Position numbers and translations under genes: made by a program. From Prochlorococcus marinus str. MIT 9515 (GTDB lineage Bacteria; Cyanobacteriota; Cyanobacteriia; PCC-6307; Cyanobiaceae), in NCBI RefSeq assembly GCF_000015665.1, contig NC_008817.1:186001-250000 (forward strand): a stretch of DNA of 64,000 bases, written 5' to 3'. The notes beneath the pieces were generated by a model that was not told the origin of the DNA, ran no database searches, and worked only from the letters and a program-made list of their open reading frames with translations. Of the stretch, positions 42,029 through 56,153 are shown one piece after another. How positions within the stretch are numbered: the stretch's first letter is position 1; every line of letters begins with the position of its first letter.

Positions 42029-44440
42029 ATGAAAGAGAAAAGTCATTATAAAAATTTATTATCGCACAAATCACTTTCAGAAGAATCTATTGGTCTTTTA
42101 GAGTGGGATACTTTGAAGACTCAAATTGCCTCTTTTGCTTCTACAAAAATGGGCAAGAATGTAGTACTTCAGTTTGAAATTCCCACTGAATATGAAATTT
42201 CGAGGAGATTATTGAAAGAAACTATAGAGATAAATGAGCTAGAAAAAAACTTAGATAAATCGATTAGTTTTTCTGGGGTGTTTGATATTTGTAAAAATAT
42301 CGAGATTTGTTCAAAAGGAGGAGTAATTAATTCTTCTGATTTATTAGAGATAGCTGAAACAATTTCAGCTTCAAGAAATTTAAAAAAAATCCTTTTGGAT
42401 TTTGAACAAAGACCTTTTATTTCTGCTTTTTTAAAGGGTTTAATTGACCATAATCAGATTGAAAAAATTTTGAAAAATGGTATTGAATCCAACGGTAGAA
42501 TTTCGGATCGAGCCAGTCAGAAATTAGCAAACCTTAGACAAGAATTATTATCTAAGAAATCAGAAAGGAGGGTATTAGTAAATAAATTTATTCAAAATAA
42601 TCTACCTTATATCCAAGATACTATTGTTGGCGATAGATACGGAAGACCCGTTTTAGCAATAAAAGTGCAATATGCAGAGAAATTTAAAGGTATAATTCAT
42701 GATTCCTCGGCATCAGGAAATACTATATATCTGGAGCCAGAATCTATAGTTTTAAAGGGTAATAAGATCGCTTCTATGGAAGCTAGAGTTGCAGGAGAAG
42801 AATTTAAATTATTAAAAGAGTGGTCACATATTATTCGTGATAACAATCAAAGTCTTCTTGAAATGTCAAATATACTTTTGAGAGCGGAGTTTTCCCTAAC
42901 TCGTTCAAGATATTCAAATTGGATTGGAGGCAATGCTCCAATAGTTGAAAATAGTCCAATAGTTTCTTTAATGGGTTTTTCTCATCCTCTTTTGATTTGG
43001 GAAAATAAAAAAAAACAAGCTGCCAAACCAGTTTCTATTGATTTTCATATAGACAGAAATACTAAGGTGGTAGCTATCACAGGACCAAATACTGGAGGTA
43101 AAACTGTTGCATTAAAGGGCCTTGGAATAGCATTATTGATGGCTAGATCAGGATTATTTATTCCTTCAATTCAAAAACCAATAATTCCTTTTTGTCCAAA
43201 TATATTTGTTGATATTGGGGATGATCAATCTTTAGAGGGAAATTTATCTACTTTTAGTGGACACATATTGCGCATTAAAAATATTTTGGAAGCTCTTAAT
43301 AATAAAAAGGGGTTTTCAGTTGTTTTATTAGATGAGATTGGATCTGGAACCGATCCTTCTGAAGGTACTGCACTTGCAATAGCTTTACTGAAAGAGTTTG
43401 CAATTGTCTCTGATATTACCCTGGCTACAACTCATTATGGGGATATTAAAGCTTTGAAATACAGTGATAATAGATTTGAAAACGTTTCAGTTGCTTTTGA
43501 CGAAGAATCATTCAAGCCTAAATATACTCTTAATTGGGGAATACCGGGAAGAAGTAATGCGTTATCAATTTCAAAGAGAATTGGCATTAATGAAAAAATA
43601 CTGAATAATGCTTCCAACTATTTAAAACCGAAAGAAGTTGAAAATATAAATAATATTATTAAAGGATTAGAAGAGGAAAGGTTAAAGCAACAAAAATCGG
43701 CAGAAGAGGCCGCTGAACTTATAGCCAGAACAGAAATATTACATGATGAAATAAAGAATAAATATGAATTTCAAAAACTCAATGCTTTAAAAATTCAGGA
43801 GGCTGAAAAGCAAAAACTATCCAAACATATCAAAGAAGCTCAAAAAGAAGTTATTAATTTGATCAAAAAATTAAAAGACCAAAATGCAACTGGAGAAGAT
43901 GCCAGATTAATTGGAATTAGGCTTAAAGAAATTGAGACGGATCATCTTACTCAATCAAATGTTGAAAGGACAACATCTTGGAGTCCCAAAATAGGAGATT
44001 TTATTAAAATTAAAAGTTTAAATAGCTCTGGTCAAATAATAGACATAGATGAAAAAGCCAAGTCTTACGAGGTTAAATGTGGATCATTTAGAAGCACATT
44101 ATCAATTAATGATTTTGAAGGACTTAATGGCGAAAAACCTAAGTTTAAAGATTCTCAAATCCAAATTAGTTCAGTAAGAGAAGATTTTTCTTTTTCTAAA
44201 ATAAGAACAAGTAAAAACACCATAGATGTTAGGGGAATGAGAGTTCATGAAGCAGAAATCATTATTGAAGAAAAATTTAAAAAGTTTCATGGACCGCTCT
44301 GGATAGTTCATGGTATCGGAACTGGGAAATTAAAAAAAGGATTACGTTTATGGTTATCAAGTTTGAATTATGTTGATAAAGTTGAAGATGCAGAAAATAA
44401 TGAGGGAGGAGCTGGTTGCAGTATTGCGTGGATAAAATAA
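42029..44440 (+). CDS. mutS2: MutS2 family ATPase with Smr domain
   Basis: An 803-residue protein with an N-terminal clamp-like domain, a MutS-type ATPase (Walker A GPNTGGKTVALKG, ABC-like LSTFSGH, Walker B VVLLDEIGSGTDP), a coiled coil and a C-terminal Smr nuclease domain (IDVRGMRVHEAEI and HGIGTGKLKKGLR). Family members suppress recombination or act on collided ribosomes. It lacks a mismatch-recognition domain, so it is not MutS1. Confidence 0.93.
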   Translation: MKEKSHYKNLLSHKSLSEESIGLLEWDTLKTQIASFASTKMGKNVVLQFEIPTEYEISRRLLKETIEINELEKNLDKSISFSGVFDICKNIEICSKGGVINSSDLLEIAETISASRNLKKILLDFEQRPFISAFLKGLIDHNQIEKILKNGIESNGRISDRASQKLANLRQELLSKKSERRVLVNKFIQNNLPYIQDTIVGDRYGRPVLAIKVQYAEKFKGIIHDSSASGNTIYLEPESIVLKGNKIASMEARVAGEEFKLLKEWSHIIRDNNQSLLEMSNILLRAEFSLTRSRYSNWIGGNAPIVENSPIVSLMGFSHPLLIWENKKKQAAKPVSIDFHIDRNTKVVAITGPNTGGKTVALKGLGIALLMARSGLFIPSIQKPIIPFCPNIFVDIGDDQSLEGNLSTFSGHILRIKNILEALNNKKGFSVVLLDEIGSGTDPSEGTALAIALLKEFAIVSDITLATTHYGDIKALKYSDNRFENVSVAFDEESFKPKYTLNWGIPGRSNALSISKRIGINEKILNNASNYLKPKEVENINNIIKGLEEERLKQQKSAEEAAELIARTEILHDEIKNKYEFQKLNALKIQEAEKQKLSKHIKEAQKEVINLIKKLKDQNATGEDARLIGIRLKEIETDHLTQSNVERTTSWSPKIGDFIKIKSLNSSGQIIDIDEKAKSYEVKCGSFRSTLSINDFEGLNGEKPKFKDSQIQISSVREDFSFSKIRTSKNTIDVRGMRVHEAEIIIEEKFKKFHGPLWIVHGIGTGKLKKGLRLWLSSLNYVDKVEDAENNEGGAGCSIAWIK

Positions 44441-44480
44441 AATCTGTAAGTATCTAGAAAAACTATTCGTCAATTTTTAA

Positions 44481-45464
44481 GTGCAATTTATTGATCAAGC
44501 AAATATTATTCTCAAAGCTGGTAAAGGAGGCAATGGAATAGTTTCCTTTAGAAGAGAAAAATTTGTGCCTGCTGGAGGACCTTCAGGCGGTAATGGAGGA
44601 AAGGGTGGCTCAATTATCCTTGTAGCTGACAATAATCTGCAAACACTTTTGGATTTTAAATTTAATAGAGAAATATTTGCTAAAGATGGTTTCAAAGGAG
44701 GTCCAAACAAAAGATCTGGAGCATCAGGGGAGAATACAATCCTAAAAGTTCCTTGTGGAACTGAAGTTAGAGATGTTCATACTGGGATTATATTGGGAGA
44801 TTTAACTATTGATAAGCAAAGTTTAACTATTGCTCATGGAGGTAGAGGAGGCCATGGCAATGCTTATTACTTAAGTAACCAAAACAGAGCTCCGGAATCT
44901 TTCACTGAGGGACAAGAAGGAGAGATTTGGGAGGTGCAATTAGAATTAAAACTCCTTGCAGAAGTTGGGATCATTGGTCTTCCTAATGCGGGGAAAAGTA
45001 CTTTAATTTCTGTTCTATCATCAGCACGGCCAAAAATTGCAAACTATCCATTTACGACTTTGATACCTAATCTAGGAGTAGTGAGGAAGGCTGATGGAAA
45101 TGGATGTCTTTTTGCGGATATTCCTGGTTTGATATCTGGTGCTGCTGAAGGAGTAGGTTTGGGACATGATTTTTTAAGGCATATTCAAAGAACAAAGATA
45201 CTGATTCATGTGATCGATTCAATTGCAGAAAATCCTATTCATGATTTTGAGATAATTGAGAAAGAATTAAAACAATATGGTAATGGGCTTTTAGAGAAAG
45301 AAAGAATAATTGTACTTAATAAGAAGGAGCTTATAGATGAAAATTATTTGAAAATAATAATAAAAAAGTTAGAAAATTTATCTAAGAAAAAAGTTTTAGT
45401 TATTTCTTCAGCTTTACGAGAAGGTTTGCCTTCACTACTTTCTGAGGTTTGGAATCGAATTTAA
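44481..45464 (+). CDS. obgE: GTPase Obg/CgtA
   Basis: A 327-residue ribosome-assembly GTPase. The glycine-rich Obg fold fills the N-terminus ([18 protein letters not shown]), followed by the G domain with GLPNAGKST and [12 protein letters not shown]. It lacks the extra C-terminal domain of some Obg proteins. Start is GTG 44481, and it is 40 bases after mutS2. Confidence 0.95.
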
Positions 45465-45551
45465 TTTTTGAGATATTATTTTTTTTTAATTAAAATGCTT
45501 GATTTAATTGTGTAAATTGGCCATAAATTATATGTTGCCTTTTATAAACTT

Positions 45552-45734
45552 ATGAATTTTTATAGTTGCTTTGATCAACAAGGAAAAATAATTGCCAGGT
45601 GCCAGACTATCCAAGATATTGAAGTTTTAAAAAAAATGGGAAGACCGATAGTTGAAGTTAAAGAAATGAAGAACGAAGAATCTGTAGTCTGTTCCTTAAC
45701 TGGCAGTCCCTCTGACTTTAATATGGATTATTAA
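45552..45734 (+). CDS. Small conserved hypothetical protein
   Basis: A 60-residue protein with no recognised domain. It starts MNFYSCFDQQGKIIARC and ends CSLTGSPSDFNMDY, with three cysteines. No membrane segment. The lead to obgE is 87 bases, and a terminator follows directly, so it is the end of the mutS2-obgE run. Coding looks real by composition and by the neat terminator after it. Confidence 0.7.
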   Translation: MNFYSCFDQQGKIIARCQTIQDIEVLKKMGRPIVEVKEMKNEESVVCSLTGSPSDFNMDY

Positions 45735-45770
45735 AAAAAAAAGGGCCTCAAGAGCCCTTTTTTTGTTTTT
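45735..45770. terminator. Bidirectional intrinsic terminator
   Basis: AAAAAGGGC and GCCCTTTTT (GGGC 45743-45746, GCCC 45754-45757) flank a 7-base loop, with A-runs on one side and T-runs on the other. It lies between two converging genes and can serve both. Confidence 0.9.
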
Positions 45771-45784
45771 TTTAAGTTTACGTA

Positions 45785-46003
45785 TTAATCATCATAAACT
45801 AAACATTCAGGTTCATCTGGATTGGCATCACAGAATAGCTCTAATGCATTTGGATCATGTTTGTCTTCAGGATGATGATCCTTATATTCTTCAAGTTCCT
45901 TTAATTCTTCAGTTAAATGTCTGACCTTTGGAAGATTACCCTGTTCTTTTGCAGAGGCGATTTCCGATTGATCTTTTTGAATGTGTTCGTCAATGGATTT
46001 CAT
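45785..46003 (-). CDS. cp12: CP12-like Calvin cycle regulator
   Basis: A 72-residue protein. The C-terminus CDANPDEPECLVYDD is the GAPDH-binding CP12 motif with its cysteine pair. The N-terminal cysteine pair and the usual AWD_VEEL core are absent; that stretch is lysine/glutamate-rich helix. CP12 links GAPDH and phosphoribulokinase under oxidising or dark conditions; with only one cysteine pair, GAPDH binding should be kept and redox control of PRK altered. It ends at the bidirectional terminator. Confidence 0.85.
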   Translation of the reverse strand: MKSIDEHIQKDQSEIASAKEQGNLPKVRHLTEELKELEEYKDHHPEDKHDPNALELFCDANPDEPECLVYDD

Positions 46004-46135
46004 TTGCAGTTTTTCGTACTTAAGTAGACTCTTATAACATAGTTAATTTGAATTGATTTTGCATTATCTATTAATAAGCTTCGTGTTCATAACAACATGA
46101 AATTGATAAGTTAATAATTATCTAGGATTAATCTT

Positions 46136-47080
46136 TTAAGTAACCGATTCGATTATTTCCTGTAAAGAGGGCAAAACTGGGATAATTTGATTTGGATTTA
46201 AAGGGAATATTGCTTTGTAATAGTCTTTTTTCCATTCAGAGTCAAAACATGTCTCAGAAATATTAGACAATTCAAAAAATCTTGATCTCCATTTAATAAT
46301 ATTTTTAAAATCTGAAATTTCTTTTTCACTACATTTAAAAAGTTGCCTATAAATTAATTCCCAACGAATAATTGTTGGAAATAAATAAATATCCGCATAG
46401 GTTAGGTCTTCTCCACATATCCAATTACCCAAATTTTTATCAAACTCTTTTTCTACCTTGCTTAAAGATCTAAAAAGGGTTTTACTTGCTAGTTCATAAG
46501 ATCTCTGATTTCTAGCAAATCCGCATTTATAGACTCCATCGTTTATGTCTGAATGAATCATTTTTAAAAAATTTTGATCGCAATTTTTTATTTGGAGTGT
46601 TTTGTTAGAGGATTCGACTTTTATTGAATTCAGTAACCTTACTATTTGGGAACTTTCACTAGATATAATATTAATATGATTATTTTGAAGATTAAATAGT
46701 AATGGTAATGTCGACCTGAATATATTCTGTTTTTGTGCTTTTTTATAAAATTGATTAAGAGTCTCGCATCCCTCAAACTTTTCTTTGAAAATCCATTGTC
46801 CAGAATTAATATCCGCTTTTAAAAAAATAACTTTAATTTTCTTTGATAAGTTTTTCAGTTTGTAAATGAGTAAAGTTCTATGGCACCAAGGACAAGAGTT
46901 TCCTACCAATAGATAAGAGTTTTTAGTATTGACTTCAAAATCATAAGTTTTATCAACTAAAATTCCCTTCGGCCTTTTATAATTTCCATGAGAGTCTGCA
47001 GGTGCAAAACCGTCCATTAATTTTGTCCAAAACCAAAACCACGATCTTTTGGCGAAATTAATTAGATACTTATTTTGCAT
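46136..47080 (-). CDS. Glutathione S-transferase-like protein (GS-hydroquinone reductase type)
   Basis: A 314-residue protein with a thioredoxin-like first half (active-site CPWCHRTLLIYKL near residue 60) and a helical GST C-terminal domain (CGEDLTYADIYLFPTIIRW). The pattern resembles omega or Ecm4-type enzymes that use a cysteine and glutathione to reduce glutathionyl-hydroquinones. The substrate is not known. It is divergent from the aspartoacylase-like gene, whose frame overlaps its start. Confidence 0.75.
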   Translation of the reverse strand: MQNKYLINFAKRSWFWFWTKLMDGFAPADSHGNYKRPKGILVDKTYDFEVNTKNSYLLVGNSCPWCHRTLLIYKLKNLSKKIKVIFLKADINSGQWIFKEKFEGCETLNQFYKKAQKQNIFRSTLPLLFNLQNNHINIISSESSQIVRLLNSIKVESSNKTLQIKNCDQNFLKMIHSDINDGVYKCGFARNQRSYELASKTLFRSLSKVEKEFDKNLGNWICGEDLTYADIYLFPTIIRWELIYRQLFKCSEKEISDFKNIIKWRSRFFELSNISETCFDSEWKKDYYKAIFPLNPNQIIPVLPSLQEIIESVT

Positions 47081-47104
47081 AAATTTGTAATTTTATTTTT
47101 AAAA

Positions 47105-48001
47105 ATGAACTCGGGCAAAATACTAATTGTTTCAAGCACTCATGGAAATGAAATTAATCCAGTTTGGTCCGTCAATCAATATAGTAAGCAGGGAAATATC
47201 ATTGACAAAAATATTGAATATAAGTTCATCATAGGAAACCCTCTGGCTTATGAAAAGGGTTGCAGATATATAGATAAAGATTTGAACAGATCTTTTAATC
47301 TAATTAAAAATAATCATGATACTAGTATTTATGAAATTAGAAGGGCAAATTTTTTAGTTGAAAAGTTTGGTGTTAATGGTTCTGAACCTTGTGATATTGC
47401 TATTGACTTGCATACGACTACCGCAAATATGGGAACAAGCATTGTAATGTATGGTAGAAGAGAAAAAGATTTTTGTCTTGCGGCATTACTTCAGCATAAG
47501 TTTGGTTTACCCATTTATCTTCATGAAAAAGATGAAAAACAAACTGGATTTCTTGTGGAAGCATGGCCATGTGGATTAGTAATAGAAATAGGTCCTGTTG
47601 CTCAAAATTTTTACGATCCTAAAATCATAAATAGATTTTTAATAATTATTAGTTCTCTAAGAGAAGAGATAAATAAGTTAAAAAATAAGCAAAAACAACT
47701 TCCTAAACTTGTAATTGTTCATGTACACCAGGGAAGTATTGATTATCCAAGAGGCGAAGATGGAAATATTAATGCCCTAATTCATCCTAAAAGAATGAAT
47801 CAAGATTGGAAGCCTATAAAAAAAGGAGACCCTTTGTTTATGGATATGGAAGGTTGTACTAAATCTTATAATGGAAAAAATACTCTTTGGCCTGTTTTCA
47901 TTGGTGAGGTCGCTTATAAAGAAAAGAATATTGCAATGAGTTATACAAAAAAAGAAGTAATAAATCTTCCCACTCAAATTTGCGAAGATTTCTTTAATTA
48001 G
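47105..48001 (+). CDS. Aspartoacylase-like zinc deacylase
   Basis: About 298 residues of the AstE/AspA succinylglutamate desuccinylase/aspartoacylase family. The zinc ligands are in STHGNEINP (H and E) and DLHTT, with EIGP later. The frame opens at 47075, but ATG 47105 (MNSGKILIVSSTHGNE) is a better start, just after the divergent gene's start region. It hydrolyses an N-acyl amino acid; the exact substrate is unknown. Confidence 0.8.
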   Translation: MNSGKILIVSSTHGNEINPVWSVNQYSKQGNIIDKNIEYKFIIGNPLAYEKGCRYIDKDLNRSFNLIKNNHDTSIYEIRRANFLVEKFGVNGSEPCDIAIDLHTTTANMGTSIVMYGRREKDFCLAALLQHKFGLPIYLHEKDEKQTGFLVEAWPCGLVIEIGPVAQNFYDPKIINRFLIIISSLREEINKLKNKQKQLPKLVIVHVHQGSIDYPRGEDGNINALIHPKRMNQDWKPIKKGDPLFMDMEGCTKSYNGKNTLWPVFIGEVAYKEKNIAMSYTKKEVINLPTQICEDFFN

Positions 48002-48134
48002 GACTTTTTTTTCTCATAATTTTTCTTTAATATAAGTATTTTTTATATAAGTTATAAGACTTTTTGATACACATTGCTTGGGGTTTTGGATTATATTTAT
48101 TAAAGCGAAATTAATTTTTCGTTTTTATTTACAC

Positions 48135-48149
48135 GTCTCGATAAGAGAC
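48135..48149 (+). promoter_or_regulatory. psbA 5' hairpin (copy 1)
   Basis: GTCTC GATAA GAGAC forms a 5-base perfect stem 15 bases before the psbA ATG. It sits where the ribosome would land, and there is no clear Shine-Dalgarno. It may affect psbA translation or RNA stability. Confidence 0.5.
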
Positions 48150-48164
48150 ATACTTTACGAACTC

Positions 48165-49247
48165 ATGACAACTATTCAGCAGCAGCGTACTTCGCTGTTA
48201 AAAGGCTGGCCTCAGTTTTGTGAGTGGGTAACATCAACTAACAACAGAATTTATGTTGGTTGGTTCGGCGTCTTAATGATTCCATGCCTACTTGCAGCCG
48301 CGGCTTGTTTCATCGTTGCTTTCATCGCAGCACCTCCAGTAGACATTGACGGAATTAGAGAACCAGTTGCTGGTTCATTCCTATACGGAAACAACATCAT
48401 CTCAGGTGCAGTTGTTCCTTCTTCAAATGCTATTGGTCTACACTTCTACCCAATTTGGGAAGCAGCTACTGTAGATGAGTGGTTATACAACGGTGGTCCT
48501 TACCAGCTAGTAATTTTCCACTTCCTTATTGGTATCTCAGCTTACATGGGACGTCAGTGGGAGCTTTCATACCGTTTAGGTATGCGTCCTTGGATCTGTG
48601 TTGCATACTCTGCACCAGTTTCAGCAGCTTTCGCAGTATTCCTTGTATATCCATTTGGTCAAGGTTCATTCTCTGACGGAATGCCTTTAGGTATCTCTGG
48701 AACATTCAACTTCATGTTTGTTTTCCAGGCAGAGCACAACATTCTTATGCACCCATTCCATATGGCTGGTGTTGCAGGTATGTTCGGAGGATCATTATTC
48801 TCAGCAATGCATGGTTCACTTGTTACTTCATCTCTAATCAGAGAAACAACTGAGACAGAGTCTCAGAACTATGGTTACAAGTTCGGACAAGAAGAAGAAA
48901 CATATAACATCGTTGCAGCTCATGGCTACTTCGGTCGTTTGATCTTCCAATATGCTTCATTCAACAACAGCAGAAGTCTTCACTTCTTCCTAGCTGTATT
49001 CCCAGTTGTATGTGTTTGGTTAACTTCAATGGGAATCTGCACAATGGCATTCAACCTTAACGGTTTCAACTTCAACCAGTCAGTTGTTGATGCAAACGGT
49101 AAGATTGTTCCTACATGGGGTGACGTTCTTAACAGAGCTAACTTAGGTATGGAAGTAATGCATGAGCGTAACGCTCACAACTTCCCACTTGATCTAGCAG
49201 CAGCTGAGTCTACAACAGTAGCTCTTACAGCTCCAGCTATCGGTTAA
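48165..49247 (+). CDS. psbA: Photosystem II D1 protein, copy 1
   Basis: A 360-residue D1 core protein of PSII. The frame is open upstream, but ATG 48165 ([15 protein letters not shown]) is the family start. Residue 131 here, which is canonical 130, is glutamine (GRQWELS), the D1:1-type state. The C-terminal tail after LDLAA is the CtpA-cleaved extension. Codon use is richer in C-ending codons than the neighbours, as expected for a highly expressed gene. The second copy at 50118-51200 encodes the same protein. Confidence 0.98.
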
Positions 49248-49265
49248 GCTTAAAGTTCTAAATTT

Positions 49266-49297
49266 AAAGCCTCCTTTTATAGGGGGCTTTTTTTTTA
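49266..49297 (+). terminator. psbA terminator (copy 1)
   Basis: AAAGCCTCC and GGGGGCTTT (with one G-T pair) form a stem around TTTTATA, followed by a run of T. It lies 18 bases after the psbA stop. Confidence 0.9.
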
Positions 49298-49356
49298 TGT
49301 TTACTTTTCAATTGATTTCATATAATGGGTAATAGAACTTAAACAATTTGATATTT

Positions 49357-50036
49357 TTGATACCTCTTTCAGATTCAATTCTATTTGAAGTTATAAATAT
49401 TATTCAGTTTTGTTTTCAATAATATTATCGATAGTCTTGACCTTTGTAATAATCCTTTTCTTCACTCCGAGATTGGTTTATCTTTTCCAAACTTAGTAAA
49501 TATTAAATGAAGATGTCGATATCTATCTTCAGATATGAACCTCTTTACTTAGTTATGTATTTTTAATCATTATTGTTATTTTTTAAATTGATGCATTTAG
49601 TTGTTTGTGCAAACCAGTTATTTTTATTAATCAGAATTTACTAAAGTTATTTATTTGAGTAAATATCTCGATGCACTCTGTTATTTATAAAATTCCTCAT
49701 ATTTTAGATGATGTTTAATAAGTATTTTTTATCTAATAGATAATATTTTCTTATAATTAATTTAATCTAATTTAAATATTGTATGTATTAATTTTTTATT
49801 TTAAATTCTTTCACTCCAATAGATAATTGCTCCAAAAGCCTCTAGTTCCAGTCTCCTATGTTTTGCTCTTGATAAAGAAACCACTTCTTTAGATCTTTTG
49901 CCATTTAATAACCACTTTATTATTACCAAAATAATTCCTCAATAACAAAGAAAATATTAAGACATAGAGGCCAACTTCTTCTTGAATCAGGTGAAACCTT
50001 AACCTGAGATAATTGTCTTCTACACATTATTTATGA
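49357..50036. other. Unique 680-base spacer between psbA copies
   Basis: Very AT-rich sequence found only between the two copies. It holds one short possible gene (49801-49929, minus), a weak hydrophobic reading frame (49410-49496, plus) and an inverted repeat GAAGAT/ATCTTC (49509-49530). No transposase, integrase or terminal repeat was seen. The second psbA promoter must lie at its right end. Confidence 0.8.
49801..49929 (-). CDS. Possible 42-residue small protein in the psbA spacer
   Basis: TTG 49927-49929 opens 42 codons to TAA 49801-49803, with GAGG seven bases before the TTG. The product (VIIKWLLNGKRSKEVVS, then SRAKHRRLELEAFGAIIYW) is basic with mixed codon use, and the local GC content is higher than in the surrounding spacer. 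I recognise no family. It may be a real small gene or a gene remnant. Confidence 0.4.
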   Translation of the reverse strand: MVIIKWLLNGKRSKEVVSLSRAKHRRLELEAFGAIIYWSERI

Positions 50037-50087
50037 TTTTGGATTATATTTATTAAAGCGAAATTAATTTTTCGTTTTTATTTACAC

Positions 50088-50102
50088 GTCTCGATAAGAG
50101 AC
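50088..50102 (+). promoter_or_regulatory. psbA 5' hairpin (copy 2)
   Basis: Same GTCTC GATAA GAGAC hairpin as in copy 1, 15 bases before ATG 50118. Confidence 0.5.
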
Positions 50103-50117
50103 ATACTTTACGAACTC

Positions 50118-51200
50118 ATGACAACTATTCAGCAGCAGCGTACTTCGCTGTTAAAAGGCTGGCCTCAGTTTTGTGAGTGGGTAACATCAACTAACAACAG
50201 AATTTATGTTGGTTGGTTCGGCGTCTTAATGATTCCATGCCTACTTGCAGCCGCGGCTTGTTTCATCGTTGCTTTCATCGCAGCACCTCCAGTAGACATT
50301 GACGGAATTAGAGAACCAGTTGCTGGTTCATTCCTATACGGAAACAACATCATCTCAGGTGCAGTTGTTCCTTCTTCAAATGCTATTGGTCTACACTTCT
50401 ACCCAATTTGGGAAGCAGCTACTGTAGATGAGTGGTTATACAACGGTGGTCCTTACCAGCTAGTAATTTTCCACTTCCTTATTGGTATCTCAGCTTACAT
50501 GGGACGTCAGTGGGAGCTTTCATACCGTTTAGGTATGCGTCCTTGGATCTGTGTTGCATACTCTGCACCAGTTTCAGCAGCTTTCGCAGTATTCCTTGTA
50601 TATCCATTTGGTCAAGGTTCATTCTCTGACGGAATGCCTTTAGGTATCTCTGGAACATTCAACTTCATGTTTGTTTTCCAGGCAGAGCACAACATTCTTA
50701 TGCACCCATTCCATATGGCTGGTGTTGCAGGTATGTTCGGAGGATCATTATTCTCAGCAATGCATGGTTCACTTGTTACTTCATCTCTAATCAGAGAAAC
50801 AACTGAGACAGAGTCTCAGAACTATGGTTACAAGTTCGGACAAGAAGAAGAAACATATAACATCGTTGCAGCTCATGGCTACTTCGGTCGTTTGATCTTC
50901 CAATATGCTTCATTCAACAACAGCAGAAGTCTTCACTTCTTCCTAGCTGTATTCCCAGTTGTATGTGTTTGGTTAACTTCAATGGGAATCTGCACAATGG
51001 CATTCAACCTTAACGGTTTCAACTTCAACCAGTCAGTTGTTGATGCAAACGGTAAGATTGTTCCTACATGGGGTGACGTTCTTAACAGAGCTAACTTAGG
51101 TATGGAAGTAATGCATGAGCGTAACGCTCACAACTTCCCACTTGATCTAGCAGCAGCTGAGTCTACAACAGTAGCTCTTACAGCTCCAGCTATCGGTTAA
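50118..51200 (+). CDS. psbA: Photosystem II D1 protein, copy 2
   Basis: A 360-residue D1 identical to the copy at 48165-49247, including glutamine at canonical position 130. It therefore gives extra dosage, not a second isoform. The 81 bases before the start match copy 1, but the region further upstream (before 50037) differs, so the promoters may be regulated separately. aroC follows on the same strand after the terminator. Confidence 0.98.
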
Positions 51201-51218
51201 GCTTAAAGTTCTAAATTT

Positions 51219-51250
51219 AAAGCCTCCTTTTATAGGGGGCTTTTTTTTTA
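51219..51250 (+). terminator. psbA terminator (copy 2)
   Basis: Same stem (AAAGCCTCC and GGGGGCTTT) and T-run as copy 1. It separates psbA from aroC, whose start is at 51312. Confidence 0.9.
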
Positions 51251-51311
51251 TGTTTACTTTTCAATTGATTTCATATAATGGGTAATAGAACTTAAACAAT
51301 TTGATATTTCT

Positions 51312-52406
51312 ATGAGTAGCATTTTTGGTAAAATTTTCCGGGTCAGTACTTTTGGAGAATCTCATGGAGGTGCAGTTGGAGTTATTCTTGATGGATGTCC
51401 ACCAAAGTTAAAAATAAATATTGATCTCATACAAAATGAATTAGATAGAAGGAGGCCTGGTCAGAGTAAAATTACTACCCCAAGAAAGGAAGATGACAAA
51501 TTAGAGATATTAAGTGGTTTAAAGGAAGGAATAACACTTGGGACTCCTATAGCCATGTTGGTTCGAAATAAAGACCAAAGACCAGAAGACTATAATAATC
51601 TTGAGCAAGTATTTAGACCATCTCATGCAGATGGTACATATCATCTCAAATATGGGATTCAAGCTGGTTCAGGAGGTGGTAGGGCTTCGGCTAGAGAAAC
51701 TATAGGAAGAGTTGCTGCAGGCGCTATTGCAAAACAATTATTAAAAACCTTATTCAATACTGAGATTCTTTCTTGGGTAAAACGTATACATGATATCGAC
51801 TCTCAAGTTAATAAAAATAAACTTACTCTAAGTAAAATAGATTCAAATATTGTTAGATGTCCTGATGAAAAGGTGGCTACAAAAATGATTCAAAGAATAA
51901 AAGAATTACAGCAAGAGGGTGATTCTTGCGGAGGTGTTATTGAATGTTTAGTGAAAAATGTTCCCTCAGGATTAGGGATGCCTGTTTTTGATAAATTGGA
52001 GGCTGATTTAGCAAAGGCTCTGATGTCCTTGCCTGCGACTAAAGGTTTTGAAATAGGTTCAGGTTTCTTAGGAACTTATTTAAGAGGTAGTGAACATAAT
52101 GATTCATTTGTTGAGTCTGATGACATCAATAAGCTTAAAACAAAATCAAATAATTCTGGAGGTATTCAAGGAGGTATAAGTAATGGAGAGAATATTGAGA
52201 TGAAAATAGCTTTTAAACCGACAGCAACTATTGGAAAGGAACAGAAAACTGTTAACTCTGATGGTAAGGAAATTGTAATGAAGGCAAAAGGTCGACATGA
52301 TCCATGTGTTTTACCAAGAGCAGTACCAATGGTTGATTCAATGGTTGCACTTGTTTTAGCAGACCATTTGCTTCTTCATCAAGCGCAATGTTCAATTATT
52401 AAATAG
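51312..52406 (+). CDS. aroC: Chorismate synthase
   Basis: A 364-residue shikimate-pathway enzyme converting EPSP to chorismate with reduced FMN. It has [56 protein letters not shown] and [14 protein letters not shown]. Its leader lies within the duplicated psbA block, so it was adjacent to psbA before the duplication. Confidence 0.97.
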
Positions 52407-52416
52407 AAATGATTCT

Positions 52417-53088
52417 TTAATTAGATGTTTTTTGAATCCATTCATATATATTTGGGTCTATAACTTTATTTTTAAAGCCCTTATCACCAATTACGATAGC
52501 TTTATATCCTAAAGATTTATAAAGAGGCACATCAACTATTGATAAACCCCCGGCTGCGATAAAGTCTATATTTTTATATTGCGAAATCTTTATTAGTTTA
52601 TTTTTATCTTTTACTGGATAAATTTTAATAATTTTACAATGCAAATCTATTGCTTCTTTAAGATCTTTTAAATTTTTAATGCCGGGAATCAATAGATGGT
52701 TTTTTGATCTTGAATAATTTAAAAGATCCTTATCCCATACTTTCATCATTGAATAATTTAATCCTAATCTAATAGAATCATCTATTGATTTTTTATTAAT
52801 TATAGAAGCAGAGCCTAAATTAAGTTTTGGGAACTTTAATTTGAGATTGGAAACATAATCAAACCATTTTTCATTATCAGACCAACTAATTTCAATGTTC
52901 AAAAAACCAATTTTTATTAACTTTTCTAGTTGTTTTTCAACTAATTCTTTTTCTTCAGCATTTTTATATATATTTTTAGTAGGTTTTATCAATAAAAAAA
53001 AAGATTTTGACTCTAAATTTTTGGAGAAAAAATCTTTTTTATGTTTTATTAAATTATCAGATTTTTTAAAATCAGATATAGTTTGCAA
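52417..53088 (-). CDS. eda: KDPG/KHG aldolase-like protein
   Basis: A 223-residue beta-barrel protein like 2-keto-3-deoxy-6-phosphogluconate aldolase. It has the catalytic-type glutamate in LNIEISW, IPGIKNLKDLKEA, the Schiff-base lysine position in IIKIYPV and AAGGLS. The usual RT after the glutamate motif is replaced by WSD, and FFPA by IYPV, so substrate or activity may have changed. Its start overlaps the ftsH stop by 17 bases. Confidence 0.75.
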   Translation of the reverse strand: MQTISDFKKSDNLIKHKKDFFSKNLESKSFFLLIKPTKNIYKNAEEKELVEKQLEKLIKIGFLNIEISWSDNEKWFDYVSNLKLKFPKLNLGSASIINKKSIDDSIRLGLNYSMMKVWDKDLLNYSRSKNHLLIPGIKNLKDLKEAIDLHCKIIKIYPVKDKNKLIKISQYKNIDFIAAGGLSIVDVPLYKSLGYKAIVIGDKGFKNKVIDPNIYEWIQKTSN

Positions 53089-54931
53089 CTTTCACCTCAG
53101 AGCGGTTAAGTAAATCTTGAATATCTTCAGTGTCGATGGTTTCTCTCTCGATTAGCATCATAGCCATTTCATCAAGAACACTTCTATTATCAGTTAATAC
53201 TTTCGTCGCTCTCTTGTAGGCTACATCAACAAGCTCTGAAACTTCAACATCAATAGTTGCTGCAGTATCTTCAGAGAAGTCTCTTGTAGAACTCATATCT
53301 CTTCCTAAAAACATTCCACCTTGTGATTGGCCCAATGCTACTGGACCTATTTTATCACTCATTCCAAATTTGGTAATCATTTGTCTTGCAACATTAGCGA
53401 CTTGCTGTAAATCGTTAGAGGCTCCAGTAGTAACTTCCTCTTCTCCGTATACAATTTCCTCAGCAACCCTTCCACCCAAAGCCACAGCCATTTGGTTTTG
53501 TAAGTAAGAGCGAGAGTAAAGACCAGACTCCATTCTTTCTTCGCTAGGAGTGAAGAAGGTTAGTCCTCCTGCCTGACCCCTAGGTATTATGGATACTTTT
53601 GCTACAGCGTCATAATCGGGCATACAAGCACCAACTAAAGCATGGCCTGCTTCATGATATGCAACAAGTTCCTTTTTTTTGTCGCTTATGACTCTATCTT
53701 TCTTTTCTGGACCTGCCATTACTCTCTCGATAGCATCACCAACTTCATCATTGCTAACTGTGTCGAGGTCTTTTCGTGCAGCAAGGATAGCCGCTTCGTT
53801 TAAAAGATTGGCTAAATCAGCACCTGTAAATCCGGGAGTTCTCCTTGCAACTTTATCAAGGTCTACATCTTTGGAAAGAGTTTTATCCTTGGCATGAACA
53901 TTTAAAATTTGCAGTCTTCCGGCGTAATCAGGACGATCTACAGTTACTTGTCTATCGAATCTTCCTGGCCTCATTAATGCTGAGTCCAAGACATCTGGTC
54001 TATTAGTTGCTGCAACGATAATTATTCCAGAATTACCTTCAAAACCATCCATTTCTGTTAGAAGTTGATTTAAAGTTTGTTCTCTCTCATCATTTCCCCC
54101 TCCCATTCCGGCACCTCTTTGTCTTCCAACAGCATCAATCTCATCAATAAAAACAATACAAGGAGCGTTCTTTTTAGCTTGTTCAAATAAATCTCTAACC
54201 CTGCTTGCACCTACTCCAACAAACATTTCAACAAACTCTGATCCAGATATTGAGAAAAAAGGAACACCCGCTTCTCCTGCAACTGCCTTTGCTAGCAAAG
54301 TTTTGCCTGTTCCTGGTGGTCCAACTAGAAGAACTCCTTTTGGGATTTTTGCTCCAACAGCAGTAAATCTGTCAGGACTTTTAAGAAAATCTACAACCTC
54401 AGTTAACTCTAATTTTGCTCCTTCAACACCAGCAACATCTGAAAAGGTTACTTGAGTAGAAGGTTCCATTTGAAGTCTGGCTTTACTTTTCCCAAAACTC
54501 ATGGCAGGGTTACCACCACCACCACCACCGCTTCCGCTTTGTGATCTTCTGAATAGGAAAAATAAACCTCCTATTAGTAAAACAGGGAAAATTAGACTGC
54601 TTACAGCTTGCTGCCATGGATTAGCTAATTTTGTGGGCGTAACAGCTATATCTACATCATTTTCAGTAAGGATTTTAAGTAAATCTTTATCAGGAGCTAG
54701 ATTAACTTCAGATCTACTGCCATCGTTTTCAACTACTTGAGCAGTTCCATTATCTGGAGATAATAAAACTCTGCTAACTTCTTTATCTTGAACAGCTTCA
54801 ATGAAATCGCTATATCTGAGTGTTTTTGTTGCATTCTCAGTATTAGGTTTATCAAAAACAGAAGTTCCTATAAAAATAACTGTTATTACTGCTAGAACAT
54901 AAAGTCCTACGTTTCTCCAACGTTTGTTCAC
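53072..54931 (-). CDS. ftsH: ATP-dependent zinc metalloprotease FtsH
   Basis: A 619-residue membrane protease. Two N-terminal membrane helices flank a periplasmic loop, then the AAA+ domain ([30 protein letters not shown]-type [21 protein letters not shown]) and the zinc site HEAGH. The start is GTG 54931. FtsH homologues remove damaged D1 from PSII, so its place near psbA and psbO is fitting. It overlaps the eda-like gene downstream. Confidence 0.96.
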
Positions 54932-54977
54932 GATAAAAAATCTTTAGTAAATATATAATACTAATAATAAAACAATA

Positions 54978-56153
54978 TTAAGACTTTCTTAGAACATCTA
55001 CTACACTTTTAAATGCGAACCATTCAGGTATTGAATCACCATTCCTCAATTTTTTTCTAAATTCTGTACCGCTAAGTTTCATTATCTGATAGTTTTTTTC
55101 TTTTGCTTCTTCTGCAGTTATATAACCTTTTTCTAATGTGTAAACTAGATTTCTAGAAGGGACAGTTTGCATCATTAACTCTTTCGAACATTTATTGGCA
55201 AAATTCTGTGCATCATAAGGACCGTAAAAATCTTCACCAGTGGAGGATGATTTGCATCCAGCCATATCCCTACCGATTATGAAATGTGTACAGCCATAAT
55301 TTCTTCTGATAATCATGTGTTGAAGTGCCTCCCTAGGTCCTGCCATATGCATTGAGTATGGTAAAAATGCCCATTTGATATTCTCATTAGAAATTTCTTC
55401 TTCTAATTTTTTATATGTTAAGTATCTTACTTTTCCTGGAATGTCATCTTGTTGTGTTGGCCCGCATGTTGGGTGAACTAAAACTACTGAATTTGAGGAA
55501 ACATTATCCGATTGTAAGGCATTAGTAAATAATTCATAATGAGCTCTATGAATGGGATTTCTGCATTGAAAAGCAACCACATCAAAATTAGCAGGTAATA
55601 AATCTCTTACTTCTTCTGGTGTTTTACATGGAAAATCTCTATTTGGGAGCTCCAACCCGTAAATCTTACCTCCTATGTAGTATCTACCTCTTTCATTAAA
55701 AATCATTTTTACTGCGGGATGATCCAATGAATTAGTGCCGTAACAAAATTCTGCTTCAACGGATTTATCTGGCTCCCATTTTGAACTAACTTCCAAAAAT
55801 GCTAGTTTTTGTTTTTTGTATGTGAGCAATATCGTTTCGCCTTCTCTAATTTCTTCTTTATTAGTATCAAATACAATTGGCAATCCAAACAGTAAACCCT
55901 TTGTGTTTCGATGGCTTTTAATTACAGATTTGTAATCTTCTTTATCCATAAATCCCTCTAGAGGAGAAAAGCCTCCAACCATTAAAAGTTCTACATCGCA
56001 TGCATTTCTATCACTGCATTCATGCTCATATGAAACTTGAGAAAAAAGTTTTGTTATAAGTTTTTTATCTTTGATAATTAAATCTTTTAGTTCTCCTCCA
56101 TAAGGAAGGATGATACCTTTTGAATCTCTTATAGATTCTTTTTGTGAGTTCAT
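54978..56153 (-). CDS. sat: ATP sulfurylase
   Basis: A 391-residue enzyme that activates sulfate to APS. The substrate motifs QCRNPIHRAHYE and IGRDMAGCKSSS are intact, as are MAGPREALQHMIIRR and the C-terminal LSGTEFRKKLRNGDSIPEWF. It lies downstream of psbO, which has its own terminator. Confidence 0.96.
   Translation of the reverse strand: MNSQKESIRDSKGIILPYGGELKDLIIKDKKLITKLFSQVSYEHECSDRNACDVELLMVGGFSPLEGFMDKEDYKSVIKSHRNTKGLLFGLPIVFDTNKEEIREGETILLTYKKQKLAFLEVSSKWEPDKSVEAEFCYGTNSLDHPAVKMIFNERGRYYIGGKIYGLELPNRDFPCKTPEEVRDLLPANFDVVAFQCRNPIHRAHYELFTNALQSDNVSSNSVVLVHPTCGPTQQDDIPGKVRYLTYKKLEEEISNENIKWAFLPYSMHMAGPREALQHMIIRRNYGCTHFIIGRDMAGCKSSSTGEDFYGPYDAQNFANKCSKELMMQTVPSRNLVYTLEKGYITAEEAKEKNYQIMKLSGTEFRKKLRNGDSIPEWFAFKSVVDVLRKS

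Follow-up and report, generated by a model that had tools for sequence, protein, structure and literature searches.

Which of two identical, neighbouring psbA genes in a Prochlorococcus genome is the original, and where did the DNA between them come from? The question is raised by the window, by which we mean the whole 64,000-nucleotide stretch analysed here, taken from a closed genome of 1,704,176 bases. The gene order at the locus is GST (minus strand), aspA, psbA copy 1, a spacer, psbA copy 2 and aroC, the names aspA, GST and aroC being assigned from the sequence. Two psbA copies split by 680 other bases had been described in an initial annotation, and this proved correct: the copies lie in units of 1,273 nt with exact identity (48084-49356 versus 50037-51309, an offset of 1953), and the spacer at 49357-50036 is exactly 680 nt long, with a GC content of 24.6% versus 31.5% for the window. 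We also share the judgement made there that a simple tandem duplication fails to explain the locus. The accompanying proposal, that either the second copy or the whole spacer had been inserted, found no support, since the right half of the spacer precedes a single psbA in relatives. The features of the locus are as follows.

48032..48069, plus strand: upstream element left of copy 1, next to the copy 1 promoter, with 0 mismatches to the 27-nt pattern at 48032-48058
48084..49356, plus strand: copy 1 unit (promoter end, psbA at 48165-49247, terminator-like site and 3′ flank), identical to copy 2
49357..49715, plus strand: left half of the spacer, probably the former right flank of copy 1, similar to the L038 and L028 spacers
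49399..49499, plus strand: apparently what is left of a hydrophobic small gene of 33 codons, ATG absent, one-base gap versus L038, protein match at E 0.09
49718..49755, plus strand: ancestral psbA-locus element, 27-nt pattern at 49718-49744 with 1 mismatch, lying in relatives in the interval between aspA and the small gene
49801..49929, minus strand: 42-codon small gene of the YWSERL motif family NF058615.1, TTG start, GAGG Shine-Dalgarno-like site
50021..50050, plus strand: copy 2 promoter-like site TACACA-18-TATATT, its aligned positions kept upstream of psbA in relatives
50037..51309, plus strand: copy 2 unit with psbA at 50118-51200, in the ancestral position, adjoining aroC

As a whole, the spacer occurs once in the genome, the only other match being 32 nt at 88%. 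The earlier statement that it is not found beside the first copy therefore holds for the entire spacer and fails for one piece, the 38 nt at 49718-49755, which recur at 79% identity at 48032-48069, to the left of copy 1. The absence of mobile-element signs was borne out. We looked for a transposase, an integrase, terminal repeats and a tRNA site, and the spacer shows no such mark of a mobile element or insertion sequence: there is no tRNA in 44000-56000, there are no flanking repeats at the spacer beyond the psbA unit and the element, and the sole open reading frame of at least 40 codons within it has 42 codons, which leaves no room for an intact transposase or integrase gene. A cyanophage search with the spacer fits this picture, returning only 29 nt at E 0.06. 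Separately, a degraded aspA 3′ end was considered as the source of the spacer and rejected, as no similarity was seen by eye in the six-frame translation.

The spacer was then compared with 121 Prochlorococcus genomes, its own included. Matches were present in 106 of the 121 at E 0.001 and in 84 (own included) at E 1e-15 or better; nearly all of the latter span roughly spacer bases 360-614, the identity being 68-83% in the 83 genomes other than its own, and the weaker matches were short. We call this conserved part the block. Among 80 aroC loci, a non-random sample picked by aroC similarity from named genomes, 55 have the order aspA-block-psbA-aroC and three (L028, L032 and L038) the order aspA-psbA-block-psbA. 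One locus is aspA-psbA (L034), one aspA-block-psbA-psbA (L075, with a different tandem copy) and one block-psbA; six have a contig with psbA alone, and the contigs of 13 begin no more than 60 nt from aroC, possibly at unresolved repeats; these 13 were counted neither way. The initial annotation had named the same spacer upstream of a single-copy psbA in relatives as the finding that would overturn its reading, and for the right half (49716-50036) this is what was found; the synteny at aroC that it had suggested checking likewise speaks against an inserted copy 2 or spacer. A right half lying upstream of single psbA genes in relatives puts copy 2 in the ancestral place and makes copy 1 the new one. 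Comparison shows copy 2 to be the ancestral gene and the right half of the spacer to be its original upstream region, and copy 1 with its right flank is, on the same evidence, the newer part of the locus.

The block encodes the 42-codon small gene. With its first residue given as M, the protein belongs to NCBIfam family NF058615.1 (cyano_YWSERL), scoring E 4.2e-25 and 87.4 bits versus a curated cut-off of 50, with a match over residues 1-42 that spans the whole 42-residue model. The gene is intact in 65 of 69 distinct upstream regions, in all 65 with a TTG start; the exceptions are L004, L020 and L029, where it is not intact, and L076, which has no stop at that place. L028 and L032 carry it in broken form, and we found no match to it in G015 or in the genome of L034. 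Codon position 3 is the most variable, and the median dN/dS is 0.15 (52 of 55 pairs among 11 chosen sequences, three being undefined), the pattern expected of a gene under protein-level selection. This codon pattern accounts for the conservation of the block. A structured RNA was rejected as an identity for the block: Rfam gave six sub-threshold matches, all at psbA terminators and none inside it.

The association with psbA extends beyond the genus. A YWSERL homologue is present in 88 of 151 sampled genomes of the family, representing 16 of 34 genera. We read 20 neighbourhoods from 19 genomes of other genera, mostly on long contigs: a full-length psbA is adjacent and divergent in 16, a contig end cuts psbA in one, only a short D1 piece is present in two, and one has none. 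The NF058615.1 model itself carries no function, and the link to psbA comes from the present analysis. In L183 (G210) and L193 (G223) the order is aroC, short D1 piece, YWSERL, aspA, and psbA seems to have been lost from its canonical place with the small gene left behind. One genome (L191, G330) has a second YWSERL gene with no psbA within about 2 kb. The protein is predicted to fold as beta-beta-alpha-beta (pLDDT 95.6, pTM 0.67). A structure search with this model returned phycobilisome linker chains, presumably of the kind called CpcD-like, at a best E of 0.43 and with no match at 0.001, so that a linker-like fold offers only a weak lead to function. A sequence search of the PDB gave four matches at E 0.047-0.58. 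Pfam DUF2129 was set aside: an HLII sequence scored 13.4 bits, below the cut-off of 22, and the window's protein had no such match.

Between aspA and the small gene lies a 27-nt element consisting of two ATAAG boxes 22 nt apart. It occurs within 160 nt past the end of the aspA match, with at most two mismatches, in 59 of the 60 loci with a resolved aspA end, and at zero mismatches in 56 of them; L038, with six mismatches, has no good element left of copy 1; the minimum among 60 shuffled control segments was four. In L028, L032 and L034 the element adjoins copy 1. As the pattern was derived from those same loci, its whole-genome distribution serves as the independent check. Across 11 genomes searched at up to one mismatch, all seven exact matches fall at psbA loci (canonical or second copy), ten matches carry one mismatch (four at psbA and six elsewhere), and a reversed control pattern gave nine matches; G124 and G131 have none at up to one mismatch. 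A viral origin of the element was discarded, the three viral contigs that hold a 30-nt pattern doing so in stretches without D1, aroC, aspA, GST, YWSERL or FtsH matches. From its distribution, we propose the element as a candidate regulatory site at psbA. As for promoters, a consensus scan of the region found eight promoter-like sites versus 11.0 expected from shuffles, i.e. no excess, and the psbA promoter-like site with its leader is conserved in alignment with relatives.

A speculative reading, to which we give rather low odds, is that high-light Prochlorococcus might possess a psbA control unit. It would comprise a dedicated 27-nt element that travels with psbA copies, and the YWSERL protein, linked to psbA as a regulator or as a factor in D1 assembly. 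The element would sit either right at the promoter or some 280 bp ahead of it, on the far side of the divergent YWSERL gene, and its ATAAG boxes, 22 bp apart, would be separated by about two helical turns. The same tentative scheme would take in the retention of YWSERL next to psbA across many genera of the family, and its breakage or loss in some strains of high-light I with present or past extra psbA copies.

If copy 1 is the newer gene, why are the copies identical? Within each of four two-copy strains (the window's, L028, L032 and L038) the psbA coding sequences show 0 differences, and between these strains they are 9-23 bases apart, equally for both copies. The tandem pair of L075 is also identical, and in G127 and G108 a second copy at 1.058 Mb has 0 differences to the first, the two strains differing by 12. 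Copies that are identical within strains and different between them point to gene conversion; paralogues are here closer than orthologues, as in concerted evolution. The shared arrangement aspA-psbA-block-psbA-aroC in L028, L032 and L038 indicates, moreover, a duplication older than the strains. These comparisons argue that the identical pairs are held by gene conversion rather than being recent. Conversion is not universal, given that the copies of G130 differ by 18. The canonical psbA of G040 (L239) has an extra C in a C-run that shifts the frame (1,084 nt), either a pseudogene or a base-call error; its second copy (L135) is full length, and L239 was left out of the copy comparison.

The limits of the identical unit vary among strains. 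Its right end lies 110 nt past the stop codon here versus 53-58 nt in L028, L032 and L038, and its left end 82 nt before the ATG here versus 98-106 nt elsewhere (with one mismatch inside, in L028). The 10-mer TTTGATATTT stands at the right end of the tract; it is also found in the copy 1 right flanks of L028 and L032 and, one base off, in that of L038. Because identity in the other two-copy strains ends at 53-58 nt, the sharp right edge is best read as the putative end of a gene-conversion tract.

The left half of the spacer would then be the old right flank of copy 1. Indeed, its alignment with L038 scores 76 (maximum of 300 shuffles, 42) and with L028 52 (maximum 38, again of 300), and the score with L032, 46, falls below its shuffle maximum of 49 (300 shuffles). 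The 33-codon hydrophobic gene is intact in L038 and L028 at the corresponding stretch, the frame in L032, 69% identical, is open but shows no usual start codon as read, and in the present genome the gene has apparently decayed. An intact gene for an identical or near-identical 33-residue protein is present in many other Prochlorococcus genomes. By coordinates, in matches partly checked against the place of psbA, only that of G094 (the genome of L038) lies at psbA besides the window's own remnant; in G108 and G127, for example, the gene is at 0.66 Mb and the canonical psbA at 0.22 Mb. In L143, L146 and others the gene sits around 1498-1599, and an hli-like open reading frame is nearby in the two of these loci that were read, L143 and L146. 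A search of 151 genomes of the family recovered it in 10, all Prochlorococcus, and a search of 20 near relatives in four, three of which have it at the psbA spacer. The protein has no Pfam or NCBIfam family above cut-off.

Second psbA copies elsewhere offer a possible source for copy 1. Those of G105, G337, L025, G108 and G127, and in variant form G040, share the leader AACATAACGAACTC before the ATG (14 entries, seven distinct sequences), different from the canonical one, and their element lies near the promoter; we call this type b. In copy 1 of the window the element is likewise near the promoter, but the leader is canonical. In three strains the sequence right of copy 1 matches the right flank of the dispersed psbA of G105, with scores of 44 in L028, 62 in L032 and 47 in L038 (shuffle maxima 35, 37 and 40) that 0 of 1000 mononucleotide shuffles reach in each case. 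Canonical right flanks score 22-27 against G105, values reached by 5-92 of 1000 shuffles, and the unconverted flank of the window's genome scores 21, reached by 226 of 1000, i.e. no match. The element left of copy 1 was rejected as proof of a type-b origin, its distances being ambiguous: it is nearer type b in G015 only and slightly nearer the canonical form in this genome, L032 and L034.

On balance we lean towards copy 1 being a type-b psbA copy overwritten by conversion. The element of copy 1 lies at about the ancestral distance from aspA, which makes a local origin of that flank possible. A local tandem duplication of element, YWSERL and psbA, with a later deletion of YWSERL left of copy 1 and the 33-codon gene arriving at the junction, would explain why this element follows aspA by about 30 nt, near its ancestral place, and why copy 1 has the canonical (type-a) promoter and leader, though this promoter is expected after conversion in any case. 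The likeness of the left and right elements also agrees with it in part, the score being reached by 0 of 500 shuffles for L032, five of 500 for L028 and eight of 500 here, but 347 of 500 for L038. The match of the copy 1 right flank to a dispersed psbA in three strains and the location of the 33-codon gene elsewhere in many relatives make such a duplication the less probable course. Delivery by a cyanophage appears highly improbable: cyanophages do carry psbA, and one relative's psbA (L140) lies on a phage-like stretch, but neither phage-like flanks nor a phage-type psbA were found at the locus. The phage match of the spacer is at most 29 nt and at chance level (E 0.06), the 10 phage matches listed are 83.5-85.9% identical to dispersed psbA and end within 48 nt of the gene, and neither small protein was found in phage records or PHROGs.

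That copy 1 is ancestral, and that the spacer or copy 2 entered a locus with only one psbA, would accommodate G015 and L034, which have a single psbA, a left flank like that of copy 1 and no block. We consider it very unlikely, however: single-copy relatives that have the block already contradict it, psbA is preceded by the block at 55 of 80 loci and adjoined by the small gene in 17 of 20 stretches of the family, and G015 and L034 nest among two-copy strains. In a tree of aspA plus aroC (21 chosen rows), G015 pairs with L028 (100/100), then with L034, then with the two-copy L032 (100/99 each). The window's own place, with L038, has support of 61/15, and the tree gives just moderate support (76/96) to the two-copy state having arisen once. 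The genome of G015 (1,657,990 bases), which we take to be MED4, has one psbA and no match to the block or to either small gene. Its locus agrees with the joined L028 flanks (the left one of copy 1 and the right one of copy 2) in 1439 of 1462 columns versus 1415 of 1469 for the version with the L028 copy 2 left flank; when its left flank is aligned to L028, copy 1 gives a score of 285 and copy 2 one of 184. The single copy of G015 is thus probably a secondary collapse by recombination, and L034 may be an assembly collapse.

In 87 genomes at least 90% complete, seven have two full- or near-full-length psbA genes (including G146, with one on a cyanophage-like stretch), three more have several partial ends only, and nine have none at threshold, presumably through assembly gaps. 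The G146 stretch (L140, G146:C3), in a relative's assembly, holds a psbA of 85% identity among hli-like and glutaredoxin-like open reading frames, named by eye. At 7266-8033 of L091, a second partial aroC end and an aldolase-like gene lie behind the first set.

The following history, with its ancestral block, added copy 1, conversion and loss by recombination, is in our view very probable as a whole. The ancestral locus read aspA, 27-nt element, divergent YWSERL small gene, psbA promoter, psbA, aroC. In the ancestor of a high-light I group, a second psbA would have been placed between aspA and the element, bringing along a further element near its promoter on the left side and the 33-codon gene in its right flank; it probably came from a dispersed type-b copy. 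Gene conversion would afterwards have kept the coding sequence, near promoter and terminator identical between the copies, and the last tract here may have run to the 10-mer common to both right flanks, leaving the sharp edge at 49356. What had seemed a non-duplicated spacer would be the unconverted rest from the tract end to copy 2, with its 33-codon gene decayed. Recombination between the copies could delete one copy together with the spacer and leave a single copy without it, as seems to have happened in G015. At present the spacer is predicted to supply the promoter and upstream element of copy 2 as well as the YWSERL gene, and the two copies are predicted to amount to two psbA doses.

The original psbA copy can now be identified, and identical pairs appear to be held by conversion rather than recent. 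In a widely used strain (MED4, if G015 is that strain) the lone psbA is probably a secondary collapse, and two features linked to psbA, the conserved small gene and the short element, become candidates for a part in supplying D1. It is already known that psbA can be present in multiple identical copies and evolves in concert. The available parts of the open-access literature yielded nothing on the ancestral spacer, the G015 collapse, the YWSERL-psbA link or the 27-nt element, and searches of it gave no paper on YWSERL or the YWSER motif; the accessible portion of PMC4526520 holds nothing on psbA copy number. A Prochlorococcus genome with two identical psbA genes, as here, is described in PMC3441193; in the portion of that paper available, the ancestral copy, the spacer and loss by recombination, which the present locus adds, are absent. 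Similarly, concerted evolution of psbA and psbD in cyanobacteria is reported in PMC6053082, where, as in our strains, psbA copies are identical within a strain and different between strains. As far as the accessible text of that study goes, it finds no psbA synteny in Synechococcales, whereas here the flanks reveal both an ancestral and a new place for the gene.
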